Source of the DNA: a virus
Length of the DNA stretch: 26,308 nt
Reading direction: 5' to 3' (one strand)
Virus record (IMG/VR): IMGVR_UViG_3300046007_004136
Location: 1-26,308 of that record
Shown here: piece after piece, positions 280-25,823 of the stretch
How positions within the stretch are numbered: the stretch's first letter is position 1
Layout: every line of letters begins with the position of its first letter
Notes under the pieces: model-generated
The model's database searches: none
What the model saw: only the letters and a program-made list of their open reading frames with translations
Told to the model about the DNA's origin: nothing
Made by a program: the position numbers and the translations under genes

Positions 280-1143
280 TTGGACATTGAAATATTTGCT
301 ATTAATGCATCCAAAAAAAGTAATCAACCAAGACAGCTGATATTAAACAATAAGCAATATAAATCAGCAATTGATAGTTTCAAAAATGAAATATCATATT
401 ATGAATTATCTGCTGAAATACATCAAATAGATATTGGTGATTTACCTAACCAAGTAAAATCTAGCATGATTATTATAGCAGATAATACATTTTATGTGGA
501 AGATGATTACTTAAATAAAGTGATCTCTATTAACAACTTATTAAGAGATGGAGGTATATTCTGCGGCCCAACTAGCACACACACACATGCCTCACTTAAT
601 AATGGTGTTCATAAGATAAATCAAAAATATCAAAGATATAATCTTGATTATGGTCATAATGTCATATCAGATATAACTGGTGAAATACACTTATATCCAG
701 ATTTATTATACTGCGCCATATCTGGAAGAGCCTATAACGATTTTTCATATAAGCCAGTAATTTCATATAGGCATAAAAATATCAGTAATAAATTGTTTAT
801 AGCTCAAATGTCTCATAGATATCATGTTTACTATTGTGGCACATTGGGTAAAATAAAATATCTAGATGAAACAGATTTTTCAATGGAAAAAATATCTGAT
901 TTTTATTATGATTCTGGATACCAAGATGGATTATTAGTCAGCAATAAAAACTTAGATGAAAAAAGAAAAGAATTGTGGCATAGATTTGTAGAGTCTCCAG
1001 AAATGCTAGATAATGAAATGCCAAGATGGCTATTAGATTCAAATCCAGACATGGATGGTGATTATTTGGAAAATTTGGTTATATGTAAGTGTAAATATCA
1101 AATAGGATTTTATGAGGGGATGCTATCTAGAAAACTGATATGA
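280..1143 (+). CDS. Unrecognised protein at head of glycan cassette
   Basis: A 287-residue protein I do not recognise. The start is TTG at 280, with AAGGA seven bases upstream; the next in-frame ATG (466) would remove about 60 residues. An N-terminal alpha/beta portion contains an IIIADNTFYVEDDYL segment that loosely recalls the acidic strand end of GT-A glycosyltransferases, but no clear DxD triad is visible, so this is not enough for a call. The middle has a histidine-rich patch (THTHASLNNGVH) and many Tyr residues. It overlaps the next gene, a GT-B-like glycosyltransferase, by ATGA, so it is probably co-translated with it and belongs to the same glycan pathway. No signal peptide or membrane segment is seen. 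Confidence 0.6.
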   Translation: MDIEIFAINASKKSNQPRQLILNNKQYKSAIDSFKNEISYYELSAEIHQIDIGDLPNQVKSSMIIIADNTFYVEDDYLNKVISINNLLRDGGIFCGPTSTHTHASLNNGVHKINQKYQRYNLDYGHNVISDITGEIHLYPDLLYCAISGRAYNDFSYKPVISYRHKNISNKLFIAQMSHRYHVYYCGTLGKIKYLDETDFSMEKISDFYYDSGYQDGLLVSNKNLDEKRKELWHRFVESPEMLDNEMPRWLLDSNPDMDGDYLENLVICKCKYQIGFYEGMLSRKLI

Positions 1144-2105
1144 TTACAATTGATTTATCTAAGTCATCTGGATTTAAGCACCATAGATCTGGATGGCAAT
1201 TTTGTTTGAGTCAGTTAAAAACACTACATTCAAATAGTGGTATTTTTTGCGATGATTTTATTGAAAGATCTTTTTCTTGGTTTTTACATGACCACTTTCG
1301 TGGAAAAAGTATTTATCGAATACCATATAAACATAAATGGATAGGATTTTTACATAATCCACCAAATATGCCAAATTGGTTTAATTATTTTGACTCTCCA
1401 AGTGTGATATTAAACCGCCCAATCTTTCAAGAATCTTTAAAAACGTGTAAACTTTTAGTTGTATTATCTAAGTATCTGAAAGAATGGCTTGAGCCGCGTG
1501 TTGATGTTCCAGTAATAGATCTAAAACATCCGACACAAATTCCTAAATTAAAATGGTGTCCAGACAAATTTATACATCAGCGTTGTAAGCCAATAGTACA
1601 ATTAGGATATTGGTTAAGAAAATTAGATTCACTACATAAATTAAATATAGGAACAGATTATACAAAAATCTGGCTTCCTAGTTCGTATGATTATACTTTA
1701 ACTATGCTCGATGTATACAACAAAACAAATCCAGACGCCCATCAATCTAGATATATGTGGGCTGGAGTATCAATGTTAAAATTTCTAGAAGCTGATCAAT
1801 TTGATGAACTATTAACTAGGGGTGTAGTATTTTTGGATCTATATGATAGTTCTGCTAATAATGCGATCATAGAATCTATGTCTAGAAATACACCAATAAT
1901 AGTAAATAAATTACCAGCAGTAGTTGAATATCTTGGTGCTGATTATCCATTATACTTTGATAATCTTTCTGAGGCTGAATCAAAAATAAGAAACACAGAT
2001 TTAATCATCGAAGCCCATGAATATCTAAAAAATATGCCTAAATACTTTTTAAGTGGCAGATATTTTGTCAATGATTTTAAGAAAAAGTTAGAGAATATAT
2101 TATGA
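1140..2105 (+). CDS. GT-B-fold glycosyltransferase (GT4-like)
   Basis: Probable glycosyltransferase transferring a sugar from a nucleotide donor to an unknown acceptor. The C-terminal third carries a donor-binding half typical of GT-B enzymes: a strand ending in acidic residues (VVFLDLYDSSANNAIIES) followed by RNTPIIVNKLPAVVEYLG, which matches the E-x-M-x-x-x-x-P-I-V layout around the nucleotide-sugar site of GT4 enzymes. The first half has the segment CKLLVVLSKYLKEWL, the usual 'host cell sees the glycan, here is the next strand' position in GT-B proteins. At 321 residues it is a little shorter than many GT4 proteins (about 350-400). It has ATGA overlaps with both neighbours. Acceptor and sugar are unknown. 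Confidence in the fold is good, in the exact family moderate. Confidence 0.75.
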   Translation: MITIDLSKSSGFKHHRSGWQFCLSQLKTLHSNSGIFCDDFIERSFSWFLHDHFRGKSIYRIPYKHKWIGFLHNPPNMPNWFNYFDSPSVILNRPIFQESLKTCKLLVVLSKYLKEWLEPRVDVPVIDLKHPTQIPKLKWCPDKFIHQRCKPIVQLGYWLRKLDSLHKLNIGTDYTKIWLPSSYDYTLTMLDVYNKTNPDAHQSRYMWAGVSMLKFLEADQFDELLTRGVVFLDLYDSSANNAIIESMSRNTPIIVNKLPAVVEYLGADYPLYFDNLSEAESKIRNTDLIIEAHEYLKNMPKYFLSGRYFVNDFKKKLENIL

Positions 2106-2830
2106 AGTTAATTTTTTCACCAGTTCCAAGATCTGGTTCAACAGCTTTATGTGAGTATATAGCATATTCATCTGAAAGTACTTTGTCTGTGGAACCATAT
2201 AATCCAGAGTGCAATGAAAATAGACAAGTAACATTAAAAGATAAGTTCGAAGAAATACAAACATATGATATTATAAAAATATTAGGCTGGCCTCTAGATA
2301 TATTAGATAATTTTGAAATAATAGATGTGGCTGAAAAGATTATTTTTTTATATAGAGAAAGTGTATTTGATACCATGTTATCAAATATTGTATCGATGAC
2401 CTATTCTGGAGACTATAAAATATACTGTAAAAATAGACTAAAAAATAGTTTCAATAGCGATGTAGCTCAATCTTTATTGAACCATTTTTATTCTGAAATA
2501 AGACCACCAATCGACTTAAAAGAATTTGCTGTCTGTTATTTTGATTTCATAAAAAATATTCAATGTTATTACAATTATGTAAAATTTTATCATAGCAATA
2601 AAACCTTAATAGTGAAATATGAGGATTTATATTCTGAAAATCAATCACTAGAACTAGATAAAATAATGCATTTTTTGAATTTGCAAGCAAAAAATATTGA
2701 CAGTTTATCGCTGATGGACACATCAAATAAATTAAATAATTATGATACATATAAAAAAATTATACCAAATCTGGATGAAGTGATGAATTGGCATAAATGT
2801 TTAAATGAAAATGAGTGTTTATCAAAATGA
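2102..2830 (+). CDS. Sulfotransferase family protein
   Basis: Predicted PAPS-dependent sulfotransferase, which would move a sulfate group to a hydroxyl, here probably on a glycan. The N-terminus has VPRSGSTALCEYIA (residues 8-21), matching the 5'-phosphosulfate-binding loop PRSGST seen in this family. Around residues 81-95 is IFLYRE followed nine residues later by a serine (R85, S94), the arrangement of the 3'-phosphate-binding RxxxxxxxxS motif. A later IVKYEDLYSEN also matches the common YEDL segment. At 242 residues it is compact but within range. It sits between glycosyltransferase-type genes, with ATGA overlaps on both sides. No membrane anchor is visible, so it would act in the host cytoplasm. 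Sulfotransferases are not common in phage genomes. Confidence 0.85.
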   Translation: MKLIFSPVPRSGSTALCEYIAYSSESTLSVEPYNPECNENRQVTLKDKFEEIQTYDIIKILGWPLDILDNFEIIDVAEKIIFLYRESVFDTMLSNIVSMTYSGDYKIYCKNRLKNSFNSDVAQSLLNHFYSEIRPPIDLKEFAVCYFDFIKNIQCYYNYVKFYHSNKTLIVKYEDLYSENQSLELDKIMHFLNLQAKNIDSLSLMDTSNKLNNYDTYKKIIPNLDEVMNWHKCLNENECLSK

Positions 2831-3678
2831 AAAACTCAATATATACATCATATGGATTTGGAGTATTGAATAATAAAGAAAATATAGATTGGGTTAACTT
2901 GCAAAAAAATAAGATGATAGAATATTGCAAGAAACATGGACTTGCTTTTAATATAATAGATGAAAAAAATAAATTCATGCAAATTATACTCAATAATTTT
3001 CAGACAGATAAAAAACCTTCTTGTAAAGATTACAATGTATATACATTAAGTGCAATAGCTGCAATATTGGATTTTTGTGATTCTGATTATGACAATTTTT
3101 ATTGGTTACATTTAGATATGGCTATTAACTTAGATAATATTAATATCTTTGATATACTTAACATTGATAATAATCACGTTTATTGCTGGTCAAATAAAAA
3201 ACCAACACAAGAAGACAAGATTGGTTGGGCAAATACAAAAATCGAATGGCTAAAATACCTCATATCTAAAATCAATTTATCGCAAGATGAAGAATTTTAC
3301 ACATTATCTAATGCGTCTCTAATTTTTGCAAACAAACAATCAGCTATGTCGTTTAAGCAAATATTGCTAGAACATCTTGATATATTAAATATCAAAATAG
3401 AAACAAAATGCATTGAGGAAACTATTTTAGAATTAGTGTATTACATATGTAAAAAGAAAAATTTAAATCTAAACATTAAGGAGTTTTGGGGGGCTAGAAA
3501 AACAGGTCCATATGCCCCAGCACAATTTTATGAAGAGTCATTTGATGATCTCTCTATAGATGAAACTGTAGACAAATACAAGAATGCGATATTTATACAT
3601 TTTTGGGGTGAGAGCAAAAAACATATACCAGAATTTTATAGGCGAAAAAATGAAAATAATAATAACACTGTCTGGTAA
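2827..3678 (+). CDS. Probable GT-A-like glycosyltransferase
   Basis: A 283-residue protein that resembles, without proving, a GT-A glycosyltransferase. ATG 2827 is preferred over the in-frame GTG at 2815, because it gives the same ATGA overlap seen at other junctions here. Visible features are an early aromatic strand (SIYTSYGFGV), a central FYWLHLDMAINLDN segment at the position where GT-A enzymes carry their DxD metal site, and a C-terminal AIFIHFWGESKKHIPEF, which recalls the terminal H-F-x-G strand of GT8/GT32-type enzymes. The strict DxD is not present (LDMA), so the assignment rests on pattern and context between a sulfotransferase and a nucleotidyltransferase. It overlaps the next gene by 29 bases. 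No signal peptide is seen. Confidence 0.55.
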   Translation: MKNSIYTSYGFGVLNNKENIDWVNLQKNKMIEYCKKHGLAFNIIDEKNKFMQIILNNFQTDKKPSCKDYNVYTLSAIAAILDFCDSDYDNFYWLHLDMAINLDNINIFDILNIDNNHVYCWSNKKPTQEDKIGWANTKIEWLKYLISKINLSQDEEFYTLSNASLIFANKQSAMSFKQILLEHLDILNIKIETKCIEETILELVYYICKKKNLNLNIKEFWGARKTGPYAPAQFYEESFDDLSIDETVDKYKNAIFIHFWGESKKHIPEFYRRKNENNNNTVW

Positions 3679-4483
3679 AAGTGAAAGATTTACTAAAGAT
3701 GGATATCCAGAAAAATCATTCATCAAAGTTGTAAATAAATACATGATTGAACATGTAATCAATATGTTTGATGGTATCTCACATGATAATATATATTTGA
3801 TCACAAAAAATTGTAATGTGGCTAGTAATAAAATTCTACAAAAGCTATTTCCAAAAATAAATATTAATCCAATATCGCCAAATTCAGATGGTCCGGTTGT
3901 ATCAATATTATCAGCAGATCTAGATATCAATCCAGAAGAAGAAATTATTGTAAGCTATTGTGATCTAGTAAGTATCTTTAATTTAGACAAACTAATTTCA
4001 TATGTTCATACAAATAATGCTGATGGATGTATATTGACACACTGTGGATTACATCCGCATAAATTTTACAATACTAATTTTGCACATGTTAGACATGATA
4101 GCAATAATAATGTATTAGAAATTAAAGAAAAAGGATGTTTTACAGCACATCCAATATTTGAACACGCATCTAATGGAATATATTATTTCAAATCATTCCA
4201 AATGATGAATCATTATTTTAGAAAATTGATAGAATCTGGCAACAGAGTCAATAATGAATTTTATGTAACAATGCCATATAATTTAATTATTAACGACAAT
4301 CTAAAGATATTGATGTATGAAACAGAAGAATATATATGTCTTGGTACACCAAAAGATGTAGAGTTAGTAAATGCATGGAATGATATCATAACTAAGTCTA
4401 ATATAGATAAAGATGAAGACTTTGTGATGGTATACAACTATTGGAAGAAAATATTCAATGATAAATTTTATAGCACCAATTAA
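3650..4483 (+). CDS. Sugar-phosphate nucleotidyltransferase-like protein
   Basis: Likely activates a sugar-1-phosphate with an NTP to give a nucleotide sugar for the neighbouring glycosyltransferases. The N-terminus reads IITLSGKSERFTKDGYPEKS, a variant of the G-G-x-G-x-R-x(n)-P-K signature of this Rossmann-like family. Arg13 and the later P-x-K are kept, while the glycine-rich loop is altered (SGKSER). Around residue 105 the strand VSYCDLVSIF supplies the conserved aspartate that binds metal and nucleotide. A C-terminal segment ICLGTPKDVELVNAW matches the common 'GTP..v..n' closing part of such enzymes. ATG 3650 is chosen because the signature begins there; the 22 residues upstream lie over the end of the previous gene. 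Which sugar and which NTP cannot be read. Confidence 0.8.
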   Translation: MKIIITLSGKSERFTKDGYPEKSFIKVVNKYMIEHVINMFDGISHDNIYLITKNCNVASNKILQKLFPKININPISPNSDGPVVSILSADLDINPEEEIIVSYCDLVSIFNLDKLISYVHTNNADGCILTHCGLHPHKFYNTNFAHVRHDSNNNVLEIKEKGCFTAHPIFEHASNGIYYFKSFQMMNHYFRKLIESGNRVNNEFYVTMPYNLIINDNLKILMYETEEYICLGTPKDVELVNAWNDIITKSNIDKDEDFVMVYNYWKKIFNDKFYSTN

Positions 4484-5531
4484 TAATCTTGGCTATGGTA
4501 TAGCTGGATATAATCTACTGAAAGAATTATATCAAATAGATAATACAATTGCATTATATCCAATTTCAAGACCAGAAAATATGGATGATACCCATATTAT
4601 ATCTATAAGTATTAATAATCAACTTTATTTTGATAAACATAGACCGTGTATAAAATTATGGCATCAACATGATTTACAGACCAAAGTTGGTAATGGTACA
4701 TATTTTGGTTTTCCAATATTTGAATTAACCAAATTTAATTCTCATGAAATAGTCAGTTTATCTCATTGTGATAAAATTATGGTATGTTCTAACTGGGCAA
4801 AAGAAGTCGTAATGAATAATGTGAATAAATTTGATCAATCAGACATTCATGTAATTCCACTAGGTGTAGATGCTACAATATTTAAACCATGCATATTGCA
4901 AAATAAAAGGCCAACTACAGTATTTCTCAATTGTGGTAAATGGGAAGTTAGAAAAGGCCACGATATTATTGTTGAATGTTTTAATAGGGCATTTAACTAT
5001 AATGATGATGTAGAACTGTGGATGTTATGCGATAATCCATTTATAGGCGAAAAAAATAACGAATGGAAAAATCTATATAAAAACTCACAGCTAGGTGAAA
5101 AAATAAGGATAATACCTAGACAGCAAACCCAAAAAGATGTGTATAATATTATGAAACTTTCAGATTGTGGAATATTTCCGTCTAGAGCCGAAGGGTGGAA
5201 TTTAGAGTTGCTTGAAATGATGTCATGCGGAAAACATGTAATTACTACTAACTATTCTGCACATACAGAATTTTGCAATAATCAAAATGCCATGCTTATA
5301 GATGTCGATAATGTAGAGACAGCGTTTGATGGAGTATTTTTTGATGGTAAATGTGGTTTTTGGGCTGAGTTGTCTGATAATCAAAAAGAAGAAACTATAA
5401 GTCATATGAGGCTGGTACATAATAAAAAACAGAGCGGTGAACTAAATATTAATTTAGATGGTATTCAGACAGCAGAAAAATTTTCATGGCAAAACTCAGC
5501 TAAAGGAATATTAAATGCAACTCGACTTTAG
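4458..5531 (+). CDS. GT4 family glycosyltransferase
   Basis: Retaining GT-B glycosyltransferase that extends a glycan from a nucleotide sugar. It has the N-terminal loop NNLGYGIAGYNLLKEL (residues 9-24), a glycine-containing acceptor-side loop of GT4 enzymes. A linker region contains VIPLGVDATIFKP (132-144), a very typical GT4 segment before the donor domain. LNCGKWEVRKGHD begins the donor domain near 157, and PSRAEGWNLELLEMMSCGKHVITTNYSAHTEF (241 onward) carries the E-x7-E donor site. At 357 residues it is a normal full length. ATG 4458 follows GGAAG and overlaps the preceding gene by 26 bases. The stop is TAG. It overlaps the start of the cysteine-peptidase gene by 17 bases, so the glycan cassette and that gene are joined in one transcript. 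Confidence 0.92.
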   Translation: MINFIAPINNLGYGIAGYNLLKELYQIDNTIALYPISRPENMDDTHIISISINNQLYFDKHRPCIKLWHQHDLQTKVGNGTYFGFPIFELTKFNSHEIVSLSHCDKIMVCSNWAKEVVMNNVNKFDQSDIHVIPLGVDATIFKPCILQNKRPTTVFLNCGKWEVRKGHDIIVECFNRAFNYNDDVELWMLCDNPFIGEKNNEWKNLYKNSQLGEKIRIIPRQQTQKDVYNIMKLSDCGIFPSRAEGWNLELLEMMSCGKHVITTNYSAHTEFCNNQNAMLIDVDNVETAFDGVFFDGKCGFWAELSDNQKEETISHMRLVHNKKQSGELNINLDGIQTAEKFSWQNSAKGILNATRL

Positions 5532-6444
5532 TACTCCATCAAAAATTCTAAAGACGTACAAGGATGGATTCGTCGGTAGCATTTGTGATCCAGAAGATAC
5601 TGATAAATTATTGGGTGAATTAAGACATCCATTATTCGGTGCTGCTGCATATAAATTATATGGAACAGGAAAAGGAAAATTATCTCTTCCATTTAAAAAT
5701 CTATTAAAATTCGATCCTAATTTTGGCCCCTCAGAAAGACAGGTAGTTGGTGATTGTGTTTCACACTCTACTCGTAATGCGATAGATATTACTAGAAGCT
5801 GTGAAATTATCAATGGAGAAAATGAGGAATTTGTTGCTCGCGGCGCTACAGAGGGCATATATGGTTCACGCGGACATGGTGGAGAAGGCATGACATGTTC
5901 TGGTGCAGCCAGATTTGTCAAACAAGCTGGTGGCGTACTAATTAGACAAAAATATGACAATATTGATTTAACATCATATCAAGGTAAACTTGCATCGTCT
6001 TGGGGACGAAGCGGGCTTCCTAAGACGCTTATAGAAGAAGCACAAAAGAGGCCAGTAAGAACAGCCAGTTTAATAACAACCGTAGAAGAGGCCAGAGACG
6101 CTCTGGCAAATGGATATGGCATAAGCGTATGTTCAATGTTTGGATTCAGTTCTCGTAGAGATAAGTATGGTATAGCCGCCCCATCTGGATCTTGGGCGCA
6201 CGCTATGGCTTGGATAGCCGCAGATGATACCCATGAAATATATAATGAAACTCTTTTCTTGGTTCAAAATAGTTGGGGAGTTTGGAATAATGGCCCAAAA
6301 CGACACGATCAACCAGATGGAAGTTTTTGGATTAGAGAATCTGTAGCCCGTGATATGTTAGGCTCTAGTGGATCATGGGTGTTTAGTGATGTTGATGGCT
6401 TTCCAGCAAGAAATATAGATTGGACTCTTGATGAGGTATTTTAA
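5515..6444 (+). CDS. Papain-like (C1-type) cysteine peptidase
   Basis: A 309-residue cysteine peptidase of papain type. The catalytic set is visible in the right order: Q76 and C81 in QVVGDCVSH (oxyanion Gln and nucleophile), H229 in GSWAHAMAW, and N252 in VQNSWGVWNNGP, the NSWG signature of the family. There is no signal peptide; the first 75 residues form an N-terminal extension that could act as a pro-region or targeting part. It ends four bases before the next membrane-anchored gene. The coding sequence is visibly richer in G and C (for example CGC, GGC and GCC codons) than the preceding glycan genes, which fits high expression or a different origin. Roles in phage could be virion maturation, cell-envelope penetration or lysis; the sequence does not decide. 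Confidence 0.88.
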   Translation: MQLDFSTPSKILKTYKDGFVGSICDPEDTDKLLGELRHPLFGAAAYKLYGTGKGKLSLPFKNLLKFDPNFGPSERQVVGDCVSHSTRNAIDITRSCEIINGENEEFVARGATEGIYGSRGHGGEGMTCSGAARFVKQAGGVLIRQKYDNIDLTSYQGKLASSWGRSGLPKTLIEEAQKRPVRTASLITTVEEARDALANGYGISVCSMFGFSSRRDKYGIAAPSGSWAHAMAWIAADDTHEIYNETLFLVQNSWGVWNNGPKRHDQPDGSFWIRESVARDMLGSSGSWVFSDVDGFPARNIDWTLDEVF

Positions 6445-8302: not shown

Positions 8303-8594
8303 GCTAGATGTGTTAGCACAACTATCTCTATATATTGAAAAAGAGACTAATGAATTAATGTTTGTTTGTGATTGGGACAATACGCAAGATGGGGTGAAAT
8401 ATATATCACAGATCATATTTGAGTTAAAATATGGAGATATTCTAGAAAGAATATTACAACATTTATACTCCCAATGTGTAGAAAATAATAGGCTTGATGA
8501 GTTTAATGAAATCAAGAATAATTTATCACAATTGCATAAAAATAAAATATCGAGCAATAATAGTATCGTAGTGCGCCCAAGGGATATCAAATAA
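8265..8594 (+). CDS. Unknown small acidic protein
   Basis: A 109-residue protein I do not recognise, acidic and probably helical (YIEKETNELMFVCDWDNTQDGVKYISQIIFELKYGDILERILQHLYSQC). ATG 8265 is preferred; a GTG at 8217 in the same frame would overlap the previous gene by 86 bases, whereas 8265 gives a 38-base overlap. Neither has a strong ribosome site. The C-terminus is basic and Asn/Ser-rich. The middle strand-helix alternation with an acidic Asp/Trp/Asp-Asn run is distinctive and could help remote searches. It is followed after 21 bases by the next gene. Confidence 0.55.
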   Translation: MEEFYQENSEYSKLDVLAQLSLYIEKETNELMFVCDWDNTQDGVKYISQIIFELKYGDILERILQHLYSQCVENNRLDEFNEIKNNLSQLHKNKISSNNSIVVRPRDIK

Positions 8595-8615
8595 TTCATC
8601 CAATGAGGGATAATT

Positions 8616-9239
8616 ATGCACAAAATAAAAAAAATAGCTTGGGAAAGTTGGAATTCTAAAGTAGAAGAATCTTTAGCTGATAATGCCCTTAGTGAGGTAA
8701 GCGTAAGTTTGCTAGAAGATTCGGATGACGAGTATCCATTACTTGCACATGATTTGTTATTTCAGAACAAAATAGTTCATACCCCTATAGGTCCATATCC
8801 ACAAGATTCTCTATTGAAACCTTCTGATAGATGGGATTGCTGGATCGGACATACAAATTTTGATGTAACAGTTAATATTGCAGAAATAATTGAAAAAATA
8901 GAAGGAGTTGAAGCCTTAAAAATTATGGGTAGATATTCTTTTTTTATAGGGGTTGCTAGACTATTTAATATTAAGCACGTAAGAAAAGATATAGAAAATG
9001 CTATCTGTAATTATACAGAAGAAGAAATACTATCAGATAATGATCTACGACAAACCGTAGATTTGGTCAAGAAGCAGTTGCAATCTGTCGATTATTGGTC
9101 TATACTAGTGTCTCCAGACGGAGAAGTAGAGTACATCGCTTCTGACAAGATGGATAAAACTTACTTAGACGGACTAAATAAGTTAACGGTTATGAAAAAT
9201 AAAAAGGGTGGAATTATCTTAAGAGGTACTAATGGATAA
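8616..9239 (+). CDS. Conserved-looking phage protein, unknown function
   Basis: A 207-residue protein without a recognised domain. A core segment DCWIGHTNFDVTVNIAEIIEKIEGVEALKIMGRYSFFIGVARLF (about residues 74-117) looks well structured, with a strand-helix-strand pattern, and resembles segments I associate with conserved hypotheticals of large phages; I cannot name the family. The N-terminal 45 residues are acidic and Ser-rich, and the C-terminus has DYWSILVSPDGEVEYIASD, a hairpin-like strand pair. GAGGGA precedes ATG 8616. It shares an 8-bp overlap (ATGGATAA) with the sigma-factor gene, so the two are probably translated together. Confidence 0.62.
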   Translation: MHKIKKIAWESWNSKVEESLADNALSEVSVSLLEDSDDEYPLLAHDLLFQNKIVHTPIGPYPQDSLLKPSDRWDCWIGHTNFDVTVNIAEIIEKIEGVEALKIMGRYSFFIGVARLFNIKHVRKDIENAICNYTEEEILSDNDLRQTVDLVKKQLQSVDYWSILVSPDGEVEYIASDKMDKTYLDGLNKLTVMKNKKGGIILRGTNG

Positions 9240-9693
9240 AAATATTGAAAACTATTTGAAAGACAGCAACATACGTAATATAATAAATTCTGTATCCAAT
9301 AAGTTCATGTATGCATTAGATCATAATGATATATCTTCTATTGCTATGGTAACATTATGGAAATGCATAGAAAAGTATGACCCAACAAAGGGTGCAAAGT
9401 TTACATCTTATCTATATCAACAGCTTTTATATGCTCTTAAAAATGAACTAAAAAAGAAAAATATAGAATATGCTTCGGACAGCATAGAACAACCAATAAG
9501 TTTTTCTATTAAGAATGAAGTATTTGACATATTAGAGAGCCTGCCTAGCGGTATGAAAACTCTATTAGAGCAAAGATTTTTTCATAATATGACCATGACT
9601 GAAATTGCTGACGAGAATGGCTATAGTAGAGAAACAGCAAGAAGAAGATTAAAAAAAGCTATTAGGATGTGTAAAAATCTAGTTAAAAGTTAA
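9232..9693 (+). CDS. Phage RNA polymerase sigma factor (sigma-70-like, two-domain)
   Basis: A 153-residue sigma factor that would direct host RNA polymerase to phage promoters. Region 2 is recognisable at about 34-72 (ISSIAMVTLWKCIEKYDPTKGAKFTSYLYQQL), including the FxxY-like KFTSYLY of the -10-recognition helix. A short linker follows, then region 4 at about 100-146 (ILESLPSGMKTLLEQRFFHNMTMTEIADENGYSRETARRRLKKAI) with a helix-turn-helix at 121-142 for -35 recognition. The absence of regions 1 and 3 and the small size match ECF/phage-type factors. It lies directly upstream of the candidate promoter at 9732-9758, so it may activate the late-type structural gene there; that link is inference. 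Confidence 0.88.
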   Translation: MDKNIENYLKDSNIRNIINSVSNKFMYALDHNDISSIAMVTLWKCIEKYDPTKGAKFTSYLYQQLLYALKNELKKKNIEYASDSIEQPISFSIKNEVFDILESLPSGMKTLLEQRFFHNMTMTEIADENGYSRETARRRLKKAIRMCKNLVKS

Positions 9694-20070: not shown

Positions 20071-21530
20071 TGCAAAAGAAAAGCTTGCTAGAAAATGCTG
20101 CATCTGAAAGAGCCGTATTGGCTGGATTATGCCAATATGGCTTAGATGTGTATCTCAATATAGACTTTGTTGATACCGACCATTTTCATAATAGCACCAA
20201 TCAACTTATATTCAGTTGCTTAAAGGCCATAATAAACAATAATATCAAAGTTGATTTAACATCAATTCTATCTGCCGCTAGTGATCTAGGTATTTCTGAA
20301 AAGATTAATACTAAAGATGAAATAGGTTTCATTAGATCATTATTTAATTTCCCTATTCATAAAGAAAATGTTTCCATACATGCAGCTAAAATCGCTAAAT
20401 TAAAATTAGCTAGAGATCTAAAGCAAACTCTTAAAGTTTGCTCTGAGAGACTAGAGACTATAAACGGTGAAGAAGATATCATGGATATGATATCTAGTAT
20501 AGAAGAGCCAATATTAGATGCAACGTCTAGTATTTATCAATCATCTAATAAGTCTACTGAAATCATAGGATCAAATATAGAAGAGTATATTACATACCTA
20601 TGCGACAATCCATCAGATTTTGCAGGTATTCCAACAGGCTTTAGTAGATATGATTTAGCCATAGGTGGTGGCTTGCGTAGAAAATGCGTAGATTTAATTG
20701 CCGCCAGACCAAAAATTGGTAAATCAATGTTTGGTGATGCTGTAGCTTTAAATGTATCCAAAGGACTTAAAATACCAGTTCTTATGCTCGATACTGAAAT
20801 GTCAAAGGAAGATCATCTCAATCGCATGATAGCAAATTTGAGCGGTGTAGAAATTAATAAGATATCTACTGGAAAATTTGGACAATGTGAATTAGATAAA
20901 GAGAAGGTATATAAGGCAGCAGAAGAACTTAAAAGTATTCCATATCACTACATCAGTATTGCTGGTCAGCCATTTGAAAATATAATATCAATCATGAGAA
21001 AATGGATATATCAATATGTAGGATTTAATGAGGATGGCTCTACTAAAGACTGTTTAATAATATATGACTATCTAAAATTAATGGGATCAGAAACAATAAA
21101 CAATTCTATGCAAGAATATCAAGTTCTTGGTTTTCAAATTACTAAACTACATAATTTTTGCGTAAAGTATGATGTACCATGCCTTAGTTTTGTACAATTA
21201 AATAGAGATGGTATTACTAAGGAATCTACAGATGTAGTTTCTGGATCAGATAGATTAATTTGGCTATGTACAAGTTTCTCAATATTCAAGCTAAAATCAG
21301 ATGAAGAAATTGCTGAAGATAGGCAAGAAAATGGAAATCGTAAACTTGTACCAATCGTGTCAAGGCATGGTGGAGGACTAGATGATGGCGATTATATTAG
21401 CATGAAGATGTTTGGCTCTATTGGTAAAATAGAAGAAGGCAAGACTAGAAACGAAATACATCAAAAGGCAAAAAATAAACAAGAAGGATTTGAGATCGAT
21501 GGAGAAATTGACTCAGAAACAGATATATAG
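20070..21530 (+). CDS. dnaB: DnaB-type replicative DNA helicase
   Basis: Hexameric 5'-3' helicase that unwinds DNA ahead of the phage fork and works with the primase encoded next. The N-terminal domain has SERAVLAGLCQYG (12-24), the usual DnaB start. The linker and RecA-like C-terminal domain follow: GIPTGFSRYDLAIGGGL (186-202), Walker A AARPKIGKS (211-219), the DTEMSKEDHLNRM segment at 241 with the catalytic acidic residue, Walker B DCLIIYDYLKLM, and FVQLNRDGITKESTDVVSGSD containing the QLNR DNA-binding segment. RHGGG near the end is compatible with the arginine-finger region. At 486 residues it is a normal length. ATG 20070 overlaps the preceding stop by one base; its end overlaps the primase gene by 32 bases. 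Confidence 0.93.
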   Translation: MQKKSLLENAASERAVLAGLCQYGLDVYLNIDFVDTDHFHNSTNQLIFSCLKAIINNNIKVDLTSILSAASDLGISEKINTKDEIGFIRSLFNFPIHKENVSIHAAKIAKLKLARDLKQTLKVCSERLETINGEEDIMDMISSIEEPILDATSSIYQSSNKSTEIIGSNIEEYITYLCDNPSDFAGIPTGFSRYDLAIGGGLRRKCVDLIAARPKIGKSMFGDAVALNVSKGLKIPVLMLDTEMSKEDHLNRMIANLSGVEINKISTGKFGQCELDKEKVYKAAEELKSIPYHYISIAGQPFENIISIMRKWIYQYVGFNEDGSTKDCLIIYDYLKLMGSETINNSMQEYQVLGFQITKLHNFCVKYDVPCLSFVQLNRDGITKESTDVVSGSDRLIWLCTSFSIFKLKSDEEIAEDRQENGNRKLVPIVSRHGGGLDDGDYISMKMFGSIGKIEEGKTRNEIHQKAKNKQEGFEIDGEIDSETDI

Positions 21531-22539
21531 TATCTGTGTTAAATTGATAGACAATATTCCCAAAATATTGAATACATTTCAAATTGACTACATAGAATAT
21601 CCAAATAGATTTTCATTTCCTTGTCCTGTGCATGGTGGTGATAATCCAGAGGGATGCAGTTTGTTTGTTGATGGTGATTCAGCTAAAGGTAATTGGAGAT
21701 GCTGGACACATAATTGTCAAGAAGAATATACTAGTAATATTTTTGGATTTGTTAGAGGGGCTATGTCTCACACACGAAGAAAAAAAATCTCATTAAATGA
21801 AACTCTATCATTTTGTGAAAATATACTTGGCACAAAATTGAACCACTCTGATATAGAAATACCAACCAAAAATTTAGACATACTAGAAGTCTTTACAAAA
21901 AAACCACAAGATATAGGTAGTGAATTATCTAGATCACAAGTTAGATTAAAACTAGATATACCATGCAAATACTTTATCAATAGGGGATTTCTACCAGAAA
22001 CGTTAAACACATTTGATGTTGGTATTTGTAAAGAAAAAAATAAACCTATGTCTGGCAGATCTGTAGTACCAATATATGATCAATCATATAAATATGTTGG
22101 ATGTGCTGGTAGAGCATTGAACAATGATTTGCAACCTAAGTGGTTATACAGTAAAGGCTTTAAAAAAGCTGTGTTATATGGTATGCATATAGCTAAATAT
22201 GATATATTACAAACCGGTAACATCATTTTGGTAGAAGGTCAGGGCGATGTGTGGAGGATGCACGAAGCTGGATATAAACAAACAGTAGGTATTTTTGGTT
22301 CCAGTATCAGTGATGATCAACTATTACTAATGGAAAATAGTGGAGCATGTAATGTAATTATATTAACAGACTCAGATGATGCTGGTGATATGGCCTATAA
22401 ACAGATAGTCAAAAAATGCGGTCGTAGATTTAATTATTATCGACCACGAATTTCAGCCAAAGATGCTGGCGATATGAAAATATCAGATCTTCAGAAAGAA
22501 CTAGCACCCCAACTAAAAGGAGTAATTGATGCAAACTAG
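21499..22539 (+). CDS. dnaG: DnaG-type DNA primase
   Basis: Makes RNA primers for the phage fork. The N-terminal zinc-binding part is visible: FPCPVHGGDNPEGC (40-53) and NWRCWTHNC (65-73), giving a C-H-C-C type set (C42, H45, C68, C73). The TOPRIM catalytic domain has IILVEGQGDVW (242-252, with E246) and IILTDSDDAGD (287-297, with D291 and D293), the metal-binding glutamate and DxD. At 346 residues it is short for DnaG and lacks a clear C-terminal helicase-binding domain; interaction with the helicase may use other surfaces. ATG 21499 is preferred over the in-frame TTG 21490. It overlaps the helicase by 32 bases and the kinase gene by 11 bases. Confidence 0.9.
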   Translation: MEKLTQKQIYSICVKLIDNIPKILNTFQIDYIEYPNRFSFPCPVHGGDNPEGCSLFVDGDSAKGNWRCWTHNCQEEYTSNIFGFVRGAMSHTRRKKISLNETLSFCENILGTKLNHSDIEIPTKNLDILEVFTKKPQDIGSELSRSQVRLKLDIPCKYFINRGFLPETLNTFDVGICKEKNKPMSGRSVVPIYDQSYKYVGCAGRALNNDLQPKWLYSKGFKKAVLYGMHIAKYDILQTGNIILVEGQGDVWRMHEAGYKQTVGIFGSSISDDQLLLMENSGACNVIILTDSDDAGDMAYKQIVKKCGRRFNYYRPRISAKDAGDMKISDLQKELAPQLKGVIDAN

Positions 22540-23413
22540 AATTTTAGCTTTTGCTGGTCATAAACAGGCTGGAAAAACCACATGTTCTAATTTTTTACAT
22601 GGCTATCAACTTAGGGCTAATGGCGTAATTGATGGATTTGATATTACTACAGATGGAAAGCTAGTTATAAAAACGGCAATCATAGATGATGATGGCAAAG
22701 AGAAAGAAGGATTGGGATTATTAGAGACTAACAGATTAGATGCAGAGTTTGCAGAGTGGGCGGTATATAATATGTGGCCGTTCATTAAGAACTATTCATT
22801 TGCCACACCACTCAAAGATATGTGTATCGGTTTATTTGGCTTACAACAAGAAAATATATATGGCAATAATTCCATGAAGAATGCCAATACATTCTATAGA
22901 TGGGAAGATATGCCATCTGTTATTACAGATAAAGATTTACTTGCAAATCCAGAAATCAAAAAATTAGTAGACAGCGGAACTCTACATTATCATCCAAGAG
23001 GCAAGATGACACATAGAGAATTTTTACAATTCTTTGGCACAGATATATGTAGAAAAATATATGAGGATATCTGGTATAGTAGACTATTGAATGATATTAA
23101 TCATGAGCAACCACTAGTGGCGATTGTAGATGATTGTAGATTTATCAATGAAGTAAATGCTATACAAAAGGCTGGTGGTAAAGTGATCTATCTAAGTAGA
23201 AATTTATATGATGACAATCACAGCAGTGAAGCCGAGTTAAAACAATGTAATAGCTTTGATGCAACTATCGATAATCAAGATCTATCTATACATGAAACTA
23301 ACATAAAGCTTATTGAGATATTAGATAGCTGGGGCTGGCTAGGTAAAGAGATAATACCAAATAATAAGTCAATGCTACAAAAGGTTGGTGGCATACATAA
23401 AATAAAGGAATAA
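22529..23413 (+). CDS. Deoxynucleoside monophosphate kinase
   Basis: Phosphorylates dNMPs to dNDPs using ATP, for phage DNA synthesis. The P-loop is AGHKQAGKTTCS (9-20). The segment MTHREFLQFFGTDICRKIYEDIWYSRLL (about 172-199) matches the LID/substrate region of T4 gp1-type kinases, and AIVDDCRFINEVNAIQKAGGKVIYLSR (about 206-232) is the VDDxRFxNE motif that follows. At 294 residues it is somewhat longer than T4 gp1, with extra sequence before the middle part (IIDDDGKEKEGLGLLETNR). ATG 22529 follows AAGGAG; the adjoining TTG 22526 is rejected. It sits in the replication block just after primase. Confidence 0.88.
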   Translation: MQTRILAFAGHKQAGKTTCSNFLHGYQLRANGVIDGFDITTDGKLVIKTAIIDDDGKEKEGLGLLETNRLDAEFAEWAVYNMWPFIKNYSFATPLKDMCIGLFGLQQENIYGNNSMKNANTFYRWEDMPSVITDKDLLANPEIKKLVDSGTLHYHPRGKMTHREFLQFFGTDICRKIYEDIWYSRLLNDINHEQPLVAIVDDCRFINEVNAIQKAGGKVIYLSRNLYDDNHSSEAELKQCNSFDATIDNQDLSIHETNIKLIEILDSWGWLGKEIIPNNKSMLQKVGGIHKIKE

Positions 23414-24439: not shown

Positions 24440-24922
24440 ATGCTAGAAGTAAAAATCACAGAATCAATGAAAGAACGAGCTTTTCAAAAGGCCAAAGATA
24501 TGGGTAAATTGGTAAATTCTATTACTAATGGTGATGGTAATTTAGCTGGATTTTTAGGAGAAGAGATAGCTAATTCTGTTATTAATGGCACGATTAATAA
24601 TACTTATGATTATGATATAATTAAAGAAGGAAAAAAATATGACGTAAAAACAAAAAGATGTACAAGCAAACCAAAAGAATATTATGAATGTTCGATAGCG
24701 GCATATAATACTAAACAAAAATGTGACACATATGTATTTGTAAGAATAGAATACAAAAACAATAATTGGGGCAGAGCTTGGATTTTAGGATTTTTTCCTA
24801 AAAAAGAATATTTTCAAAAGGCAATATTATTGAAACGTGGAGATATCGATCATAGCAATGGTTTTATTGTAAAAGCTGACTGTTATAATATGGCAATCAA
24901 GGATCTTCATCAATATGGCTGA
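24440..24922 (+). CDS. Second small PD-(D/E)XK-type nuclease
   Basis: A 160-residue protein with the restriction-fold core LAGFLGEEIANSVING (35-50, with E41) and TYDYDIIKEGKKYDVKTKRCT (55-75, with D59 or D68 and K70), the E...D...DxK spacing of this nuclease superfamily. A likely function is DNA cutting in recombination, for example junction resolution or repair. ATG 24440 is the first ATG; the frame also allows TTG 24434, which would overlap the previous stop. Its end overlaps the next gene by 8 bp (ATGGCTGA). Another restriction-fold nuclease lies at 18824, so this block encodes three such proteins. Confidence 0.75.
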   Translation: MLEVKITESMKERAFQKAKDMGKLVNSITNGDGNLAGFLGEEIANSVINGTINNTYDYDIIKEGKKYDVKTKRCTSKPKEYYECSIAAYNTKQKCDTYVFVRIEYKNNNWGRAWILGFFPKKEYFQKAILLKRGDIDHSNGFIVKADCYNMAIKDLHQYG

Positions 24923-25823
24923 GTTACTTGACCTACACAAAGAATTTCATCTTGGCAATTTATTCACATATAATGTTGGCAAAGAATTAGCTAATTTGCT
25001 ATGTGATAAATTCAGAGTAATTCTAAAATATGATAGTAAAGAATTACCAGTATTTAATGATGATTTACTAAACATTGAAATAGCAACTTCAAGAGAAACA
25101 CACTCTATACCTCATAATTTTTTTAGAGATGATGTTTATGCTATATTTCAAAACTATTTCATGTTAGATAAATGGGAATATCCAATATATAACCCACTAT
25201 CATATCCAATGCCAATAGGTACGTTTGTAGATTTTGATCAATTTAAATCTATAGAAATTAAACCAATTCCAGAAAGAAAATATGATTTTTCTTTTATTGG
25301 ACAAATACCACATACTGGCACTAGAGATTGTTTCAAAAGAAACATAGAGCAATTAGTATTAAAAACTGGTAAAAAGTTTAGATATGTATTAGAATTTACT
25401 ACTGGTTTTAATGGCGGCTTATCTCATGGAGAATATGTCGAGTTATTAAATGATTCGAAAATAGCACTGTGTCCACCCGGAGCATATAGTCTAGAAACAT
25501 TTAGATTTTTTGAGTGCATAAAAATGGGGGCGATTCCGATGGTTGAAAGATTGCCTAAACTGTGGTATTATGAGAATGCACCGTTCTTCAAGTGTAGGTG
25601 GCATGAGTTAGATTTTTATTTATCTACATCATTGAACTACTTAAATAGTATTACATCCAGAAGTATGTTTGAAAAATTAGCCATATATAATATGCAGATA
25701 TTAAATGAGCAACAGCTTGCATTACATTTATATACTGTTTTACAACACAGAAATAATATAGATAAAACAATTATACAATCAGAAATACAAAAAATAAGAA
25801 GAGAGCTAGAACAATATGTCTAA
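24915..25823 (+). CDS. Exostosin-like (GT47) glycosyltransferase
   Basis: A 302-residue protein in which the segment YVELLNDSKIALCPPGAYSLETFRFFECIKMGAIPMVERLPKLWY (about 174-218) is the GT47/exostosin signature: the S-K-I-A-L-C-P-x-G strand, the R-F-F-E helix and the G-A-I-P-x-V turn of the donor site. YDFSFIGQIPHTGTRDCFKRNI is another typical exostosin part. No membrane anchor is seen, so it would act in the cytoplasm. It sits between a nuclease gene and the polymerase, far from the glycan cassette, with 8-bp overlaps on both sides (ATGGCTGA, ATGTCTAA). This placement is unusual and might mean modification of DNA or of a virion component; sugar and acceptor are unknown. Confidence 0.82.
   Translation: MAELLDLHKEFHLGNLFTYNVGKELANLLCDKFRVILKYDSKELPVFNDDLLNIEIATSRETHSIPHNFFRDDVYAIFQNYFMLDKWEYPIYNPLSYPMPIGTFVDFDQFKSIEIKPIPERKYDFSFIGQIPHTGTRDCFKRNIEQLVLKTGKKFRYVLEFTTGFNGGLSHGEYVELLNDSKIALCPPGAYSLETFRFFECIKMGAIPMVERLPKLWYYENAPFFKCRWHELDFYLSTSLNYLNSITSRSMFEKLAIYNMQILNEQQLALHLYTVLQHRNNIDKTIIQSEIQKIRRELEQYV

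Follow-up and report, generated by a model that had tools for sequence, protein, structure and literature searches.

Long co-directional runs of glycan genes that include nucleotidyltransferases are already known from the polysaccharide islands of Synechococcus phages (S-SM2, Bellamy; Kyanoviridae), and sulfotransferase genes without an assigned function have been reported in some phages, among them the Sulfotransfer_3-type genes of the OM43 phages and of S-SRM01 (PMC10580990). Here we analyse a cassette at positions 280-5531, (+) strand, of the IMG/VR virus contig IMGVR_UViG_3300046007_004136 (26,308 bases; the whole stretch is referred to as the window). It consists of six co-directional open reading frames (ORFs), g1 to g6, each overlapping the next. 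The unusual part of this locus is a fixed frame of glycosyltransferase (GT) genes around an exchangeable tailoring slot, which often holds a sulfotransferase. The six genes are:

280..1143, (+): g1, predicted GT-A fold (GT2-like) glycosyltransferase, 5' frame gene, from the predicted structure and Foldseek
1140..2105, (+): g2, probable GT-B glycosyltransferase (remotely SenB/GT4-like), from family profile matches; overlaps the end of g1
2102..2830, (+): g3, likely sulfotransferase dependent on 3'-phosphoadenosine 5'-phosphosulfate (PAPS) (Sulfotransfer_1/3, Stf0/NodH-like), from PF00685 and motifs
2827..3678 (ORF opens at 2815), (+): g4, probable GT-A glycosyltransferase, from an acidic DxD-like motif
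3650..4483 (ORF opens at 3584), (+): g5, predicted sugar-1-phosphate nucleotidyltransferase, from PF12804, PF00483 and PHROG 3980
4458..5531, (+): g6, predicted GT4 glycosyltransferase, 3' frame gene, from PF13692 and PHROG 2170

The g1/g2 and g2/g3 overlaps are of the ATGA type (4 nt). Translation of g4 most likely begins at 2827, where both homology and an ATGA overlap place it, and that of g5 most likely at 3650, where homology begins and a stretch resembling a ribosome-binding site is found. Hydropathy gives no sign of a transmembrane segment in any of the six (maximum KD19 1.32), which points to cytosolic assembly without export parts. The first 8 kb of the window are matched wholly or partly by eight other IMG/VR contigs at 96-98% identity, and the entire window is matched at 97% by two contigs of ~105 kb. 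Because the eight contigs share the stretch and the order g1-g2-...-g6 recurs in 17 diverged loci, the cassette is not a chance arrangement.

Related viral loci, designated by L-numbers, were gathered with g2 and a papain-like neighbour as anchors. After near-identical loci were collapsed, 17 remained, including the window, with g2 proteins at most 91% identical. In the redundant set, all 77 profile hits to g1 have g2 immediately after it, while g6 lies downstream of g1-g2 in all 17 loci, after zero to five intervening genes. The genes are thus not scattered in every relative, g1-g2 and g6 retaining their order. The distribution of g6 is wider than that of g1-g2, with 55 members in the loci anchored on the papain-like gene. 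A sulfotransferase occupies the slot between g2 and g6 in 8 of the 17 loci and belongs to one of two families: the g3 type (the window, L277, L279, L283, L293 and L294, that of L293 being fused to an FkbM methyltransferase domain) or Sulfotransfer_2 (L285 and L291). The putative GT-A gene g4 is present in the slot of L135, L277 and L295, and other slot genes match SPASM/radical SAM, CTP_transf_like, DUF6473 and FkbM in Pfam, with a YfbR-like hydrolase in L294. Profile scans with alignments A5 and A4 returned near-identical contigs only. No description of the frame-and-slot arrangement was found in the literature searched, a limited collection. Such a layout suggests a sugar coat that is diversified by swapping tailoring enzymes, and the recurrence of sulfotransferases at one defined position of a GT locus provides a concrete hypothesis for their substrate, namely a phage-built glycan.

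The assignment of g3 as a likely PAPS-type sulfotransferase is based on a match to Sulfotransfer_1 (PF00685; E value 1.9e-5; 24.6 bits) above the cut-off of 22 bits, Pfam matches being judged throughout against the curated cut-offs of that database, and on its motifs. The P-loop PRSGST, which would bind the 5'-phosphosulfate, and the 3'-phosphate-binding motif (R85 and S94, an Arg followed by a Ser some 8-9 residues on) are both present. The only invariant residues among 15 family members are R10, G12, E31, R85 and S94, two of which (R10 and G12) lie in the P-loop. E31 corresponds to a Glu common to the Stf0-type members, which we take to be the catalytic base in Stf0. Within the family, Sulfotransfer_3 is matched by 9 of the 15 sequences, Sulfotransfer_1 by four and Stf0 by three, and a homologue from a huge uncultured phage has the same motifs. 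The family profile A7 matches the lipopolysaccharide (LPS) sulfotransferase NodH in the PDB (E value 3e-11), a value that deserves partial weight, since iteration brought Stf0-type sequences into A7. The cassette-only profile A10, which is stricter, gave weak PDB matches (E value 0.014), nearly all of them sulfotransferases, and the g3 sequence by itself found no solved structure. Searching 294 planctomycete-phylum genomes for g3 returned no match, but the search had no positive control and is hence uninformative. In near-identical contigs, two genes lie 5' of the position where the window begins: a second sulfotransferase-like ORF (L093:1808-2284; PRSGSHS, RNPIERFRSM) with no Pfam match, and a GT2 gene (L093:2289-3158; PF00535, E value 9.2e-7).

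Structure prediction indicates that g1 is a GT-A glycosyltransferase. An AlphaFold2 model from a 21-sequence alignment has a pLDDT of 85.2 and a pTM of 0.82; an earlier model from three sequences was of low confidence (pLDDT 37). Foldseek aligns the model with the GT-A glycosyltransferases TarP, RmlT, TarS and SpsA (E values 3e-6 to 1e-4, probability 1.00), with TM-scores of ~0.4, so that the likeness is one of fold class and not of close kinship. The model also resembles viral GT2 proteins, including the Che8 GT, and one member of the g1 family matches Glyco_trans_2_3 (E value 1.2e-4).

For g2, Glyco_transf_4 is matched by 10 of 22 family members (best E value 5e-4), g2 alone giving a weak match, and matches to SenB are also weak; the protein is probably a GT-B glycosyltransferase. 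In distant phages (L299-L308 and L338-L341), the g2 domain forms the C-terminal part of proteins of 600-880 residues. A reading of these as g1-g2 fusions was not supported, as the N-terminal part has no match to the g1 profile; by eye, it resembles other glycosyltransferase types.

The 3' frame gene g6 matches PF13692 (E value 5.6e-16; 59.5 bits against a cut-off of 27) and PF00534 (56.7 against 26.4), as well as PHROG 2170 (E value 2.6e-25), and with 87 related loci it is conserved throughout this group of phages. In some relatives, other glycan genes stand close to g6: L157:1184-5759 has a related pair of GT17-like genes together with methyltransferase-like genes, and L141:6389-8957 has three tandem HIRRGD fucosyltransferase-like genes.

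The product of g5 matches NTP_transf_3 (PF12804; E value 1.7e-6) and NTP_transferase (PF00483; E value 3e-5), both above cut-off, together with PHROG 3980 (E value 3.6e-40) and PDB 4evw (E value 6.6e-5). It shares 33% identity with the pyrophosphorylase of S-SM2, and residues S8, G9, S11, R13, F14, K22, D105, E160, K161 and G176, as well as YYF, are common to the cyanophage homologues. Presumably these represent the N-terminal signature S-G-x-S-x-R-F...K, a metal-binding Asp, and the EK and G-x-YYF elements of the sugar site.

The initial annotation had read six consecutive, overlapping genes, five of them with glycan-building functions. The ORFs bear out the arrangement, and all five assignments stand: the sulfotransferase, nucleotidyltransferase and GT4 calls each have Pfam matches above cut-off, with PAPS-binding motifs kept in g3 and substrate-binding motifs in g5, while the GT-B call for g2 draws weaker support than those three and the GT-A call for g4 comes from a motif. 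The sixth gene, g1, had been left unassigned; since its model is confidently that of a GT-A glycosyltransferase, all six genes look glycan-related. The further claim of a complete set was not supported. None of the cassette genes was recognised as a sugar kinase, and the species of the window is the only one with g5 in the slot, every other g1-g2-g6 locus lacking it, so that such a set is not conserved. Neither is the combination as unusual in a phage as had been supposed, given the nucleotidyltransferase and GT islands of phages such as S-SM2 and the sulfotransferases of others; what stands is the GT frame with its exchangeable slot.

In the S-SM2 stretch examined, by comparison, no sulfotransferase is annotated and there is no frame-and-slot layout, and a tblastn search with g1, g2 and g4 against 50,697 reference phage records gave no match. 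Virion glycosylation of the Che8 type in mycobacteriophages also employs phage-encoded GTs, including the one that g1 resembles in its GT-A fold, but in a different host and, to our knowledge, with few GTs and no sulfotransferase. Compared with the bacterial LPS/Nod-factor and Stf0 carbohydrate sulfotransferases, g3 has the same P-loop RSGST, R...S 3'-phosphate motif and aligned Glu, but low identity. Like the genes of the OM43 phages and S-SRM01, it is a Sulfotransfer_3-type phage gene (PMC10580990); unlike them, it is embedded in a conserved glycosyltransferase locus, and this suggests a glycan as its substrate.

We propose, with a probability of about 0.5, that the cassette is a cytosolic phage locus for glycan assembly and tailoring with an exchangeable cap chemistry (sulfate here), whose product most likely decorates a virion protein. 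The products of g1, g2, g4 and g6 would add sugars to the acceptor in sequence, in an order that we infer, while g5 would activate a sugar-1-phosphate to the nucleoside diphosphate sugar for one of the GT steps. The g3 enzyme would place sulfate from PAPS on the glycan, or on the sugar at its end. Whereas g1, g2 and g6 would provide the fixed frame, the slot genes between g2 and g6 would set the final decoration, i.e., sulfate, methyl, an extra sugar or another group, and the surface of the particle would thereby vary between phages. A virion protein is preferred as the acceptor because the locus has no export machinery and because there are phage precedents, such as the mycobacteriophage virion glycans, for which PMC12619734 cites earlier work.

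Several observations weigh against this proposal. In G005, a longer genome near-identical to the window (its coordinates are given as reverse-complement), replication-type genes stand beside the cassette genes and large tail-type genes are on the other strand, so that position does not suggest virion decoration; nor was any acceptor identified from sequence. The Pfam match of g3 is weak on its own, and in a six-frame search the g3 of near-identical relatives scored 18.6 bits, below the Sulfotransfer_1 cut-off. No kinase for adenosine 5'-phosphosulfate was matched above cut-off in four near-identical contigs and no PAPS-synthesis gene was found; therefore, PAPS must be made by the host. The weakest call of the six, g4 as a probable GT-A glycosyltransferase, rests on an acidic motif (HLD in the window, DLD in relatives), whose D101 is, like the C-terminal H262, invariant in five relatives. 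It has no Pfam family match, and its PDB matches were unrelated.

Of the alternatives, the one that survives best, though we consider it unlikely, is that the locus remodels a cell-surface or secreted glycan of the host, for receptor masking or superinfection exclusion, from cytosolic precursors and with host export. The closest solved folds of g1, TarP, RmlT and TarS, are cytosolic wall-polymer glycosyltransferases, and the NodH match of the g3 family profile, Stf0 members included, points the same way. Sugar-nucleotide enzymes are also encoded in G005, where a second, larger glycan island (62340-77925; L170, L171) has the replication genes on one side and, on the other, large structural-type genes that run in the opposite direction, and comprises GT4, GT2, a GT10 fucosyltransferase, an epimerase, a DegT aminotransferase and another nucleotidyltransferase. 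However, the cassette has no membrane protein and therefore no flippase or polymerase, and no GtrA/B-type genes were noticed. Considerably less probable is hypermodification of bases in the phage DNA by a sugar, sulfated or otherwise substituted, as protection from nucleases. Base modification by GTs or sulfotransferases is mentioned in PMC10829341, the cassette adjoins replication and nucleotide genes, and the YfbR-like hydrolase in the slot of L294 would fit; yet thymidylate synthase was matched in only one of nine related contigs, and Tet/JBP oxygenases in none of the nine, a search in which the control was equally silent. The least probable reading has the cassette producing a small metabolite, glycosylated or sulfated, in place of a surface glycan, or being for the most part cargo without function. 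In its favour, some relatives have SPASM radical SAM proteins in their slot, which are typical of peptide and small-molecule modification, and g2 has a weak likeness to SenB; against it, no peptide precursor gene was seen, and eight near-identical contigs retain the stretch, as 17 loci retain its order.

The virion-glycan proposal has a more specific form if the host is considered. A planctomycete host is probable because longer relatives carry planctomycete-type DUF1559 and DUF1501 proteins. G005 encodes a pseudopilin-like DUF1559 protein as well as three DUF1501 proteins that begin with a twin-arginine sequence, one of the DUF1501 genes being just 5' of the cassette:

8575-9507, 20145-22723 and 30825-32096 (reverse-complement): G005 DUF1559/DUF1501 genes (loci L173, L172)

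Of 15 related phage contigs, five have full-length DUF1559, which was also matched, with similar strength, in genomes of the planctomycete phylum, while relatives of DUF1501 are mostly from Planctomycetota and Verrucomicrobiota. A host among the Verrucomicrobiota is less likely, as that phylum gave only weaker DUF1559 matches of short length. We raise, tentatively and with more doubt than belief, the possibility that the virions of planctomycete phages carry a sulfated glycan linked to protein, and that its terminal chemistry changes as cassettes are exchanged between the fixed GT genes. The locus would then be a modular one for surface variation, with sulfation encoded by the phage itself. 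Very few studies of phages from this probable host group were present in the literature searched.

Beyond the cassette, the window encodes a sigma factor, ribonucleotide reductase, PhoH, a RecA/UvsX-like recombinase, DnaB helicase, primase and the start of PolIII alpha. The cassette is directly flanked by two genes, the first of which has a similar counterpart in L277:

3..278, (+): thioredoxin-like protein (Thioredoxin_2 in Pfam, E value 2.1e-8), directly 5' of the cassette, 5'-truncated at the edge of the contig
5515..6444, (+): papain-like protein used as the synteny anchor, with GDCVS, HAM and QNSWG motifs read from the sequence

The papain-like protein has no Pfam match and, as far as is known, is not part of the glycan function. 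It has relatives in 153 viral stretches, adjoins g6 in many of them, and occurs in some as a version of 640-690 residues. A further glycosyltransferase gene, exostosin-like and of the GT47/RXYLT1_C type (PF24785; E value 1.1e-7, above cut-off), lies at 24915-25823 (+), just 5' of PolIII alpha, and has homologues in ~38 related loci.

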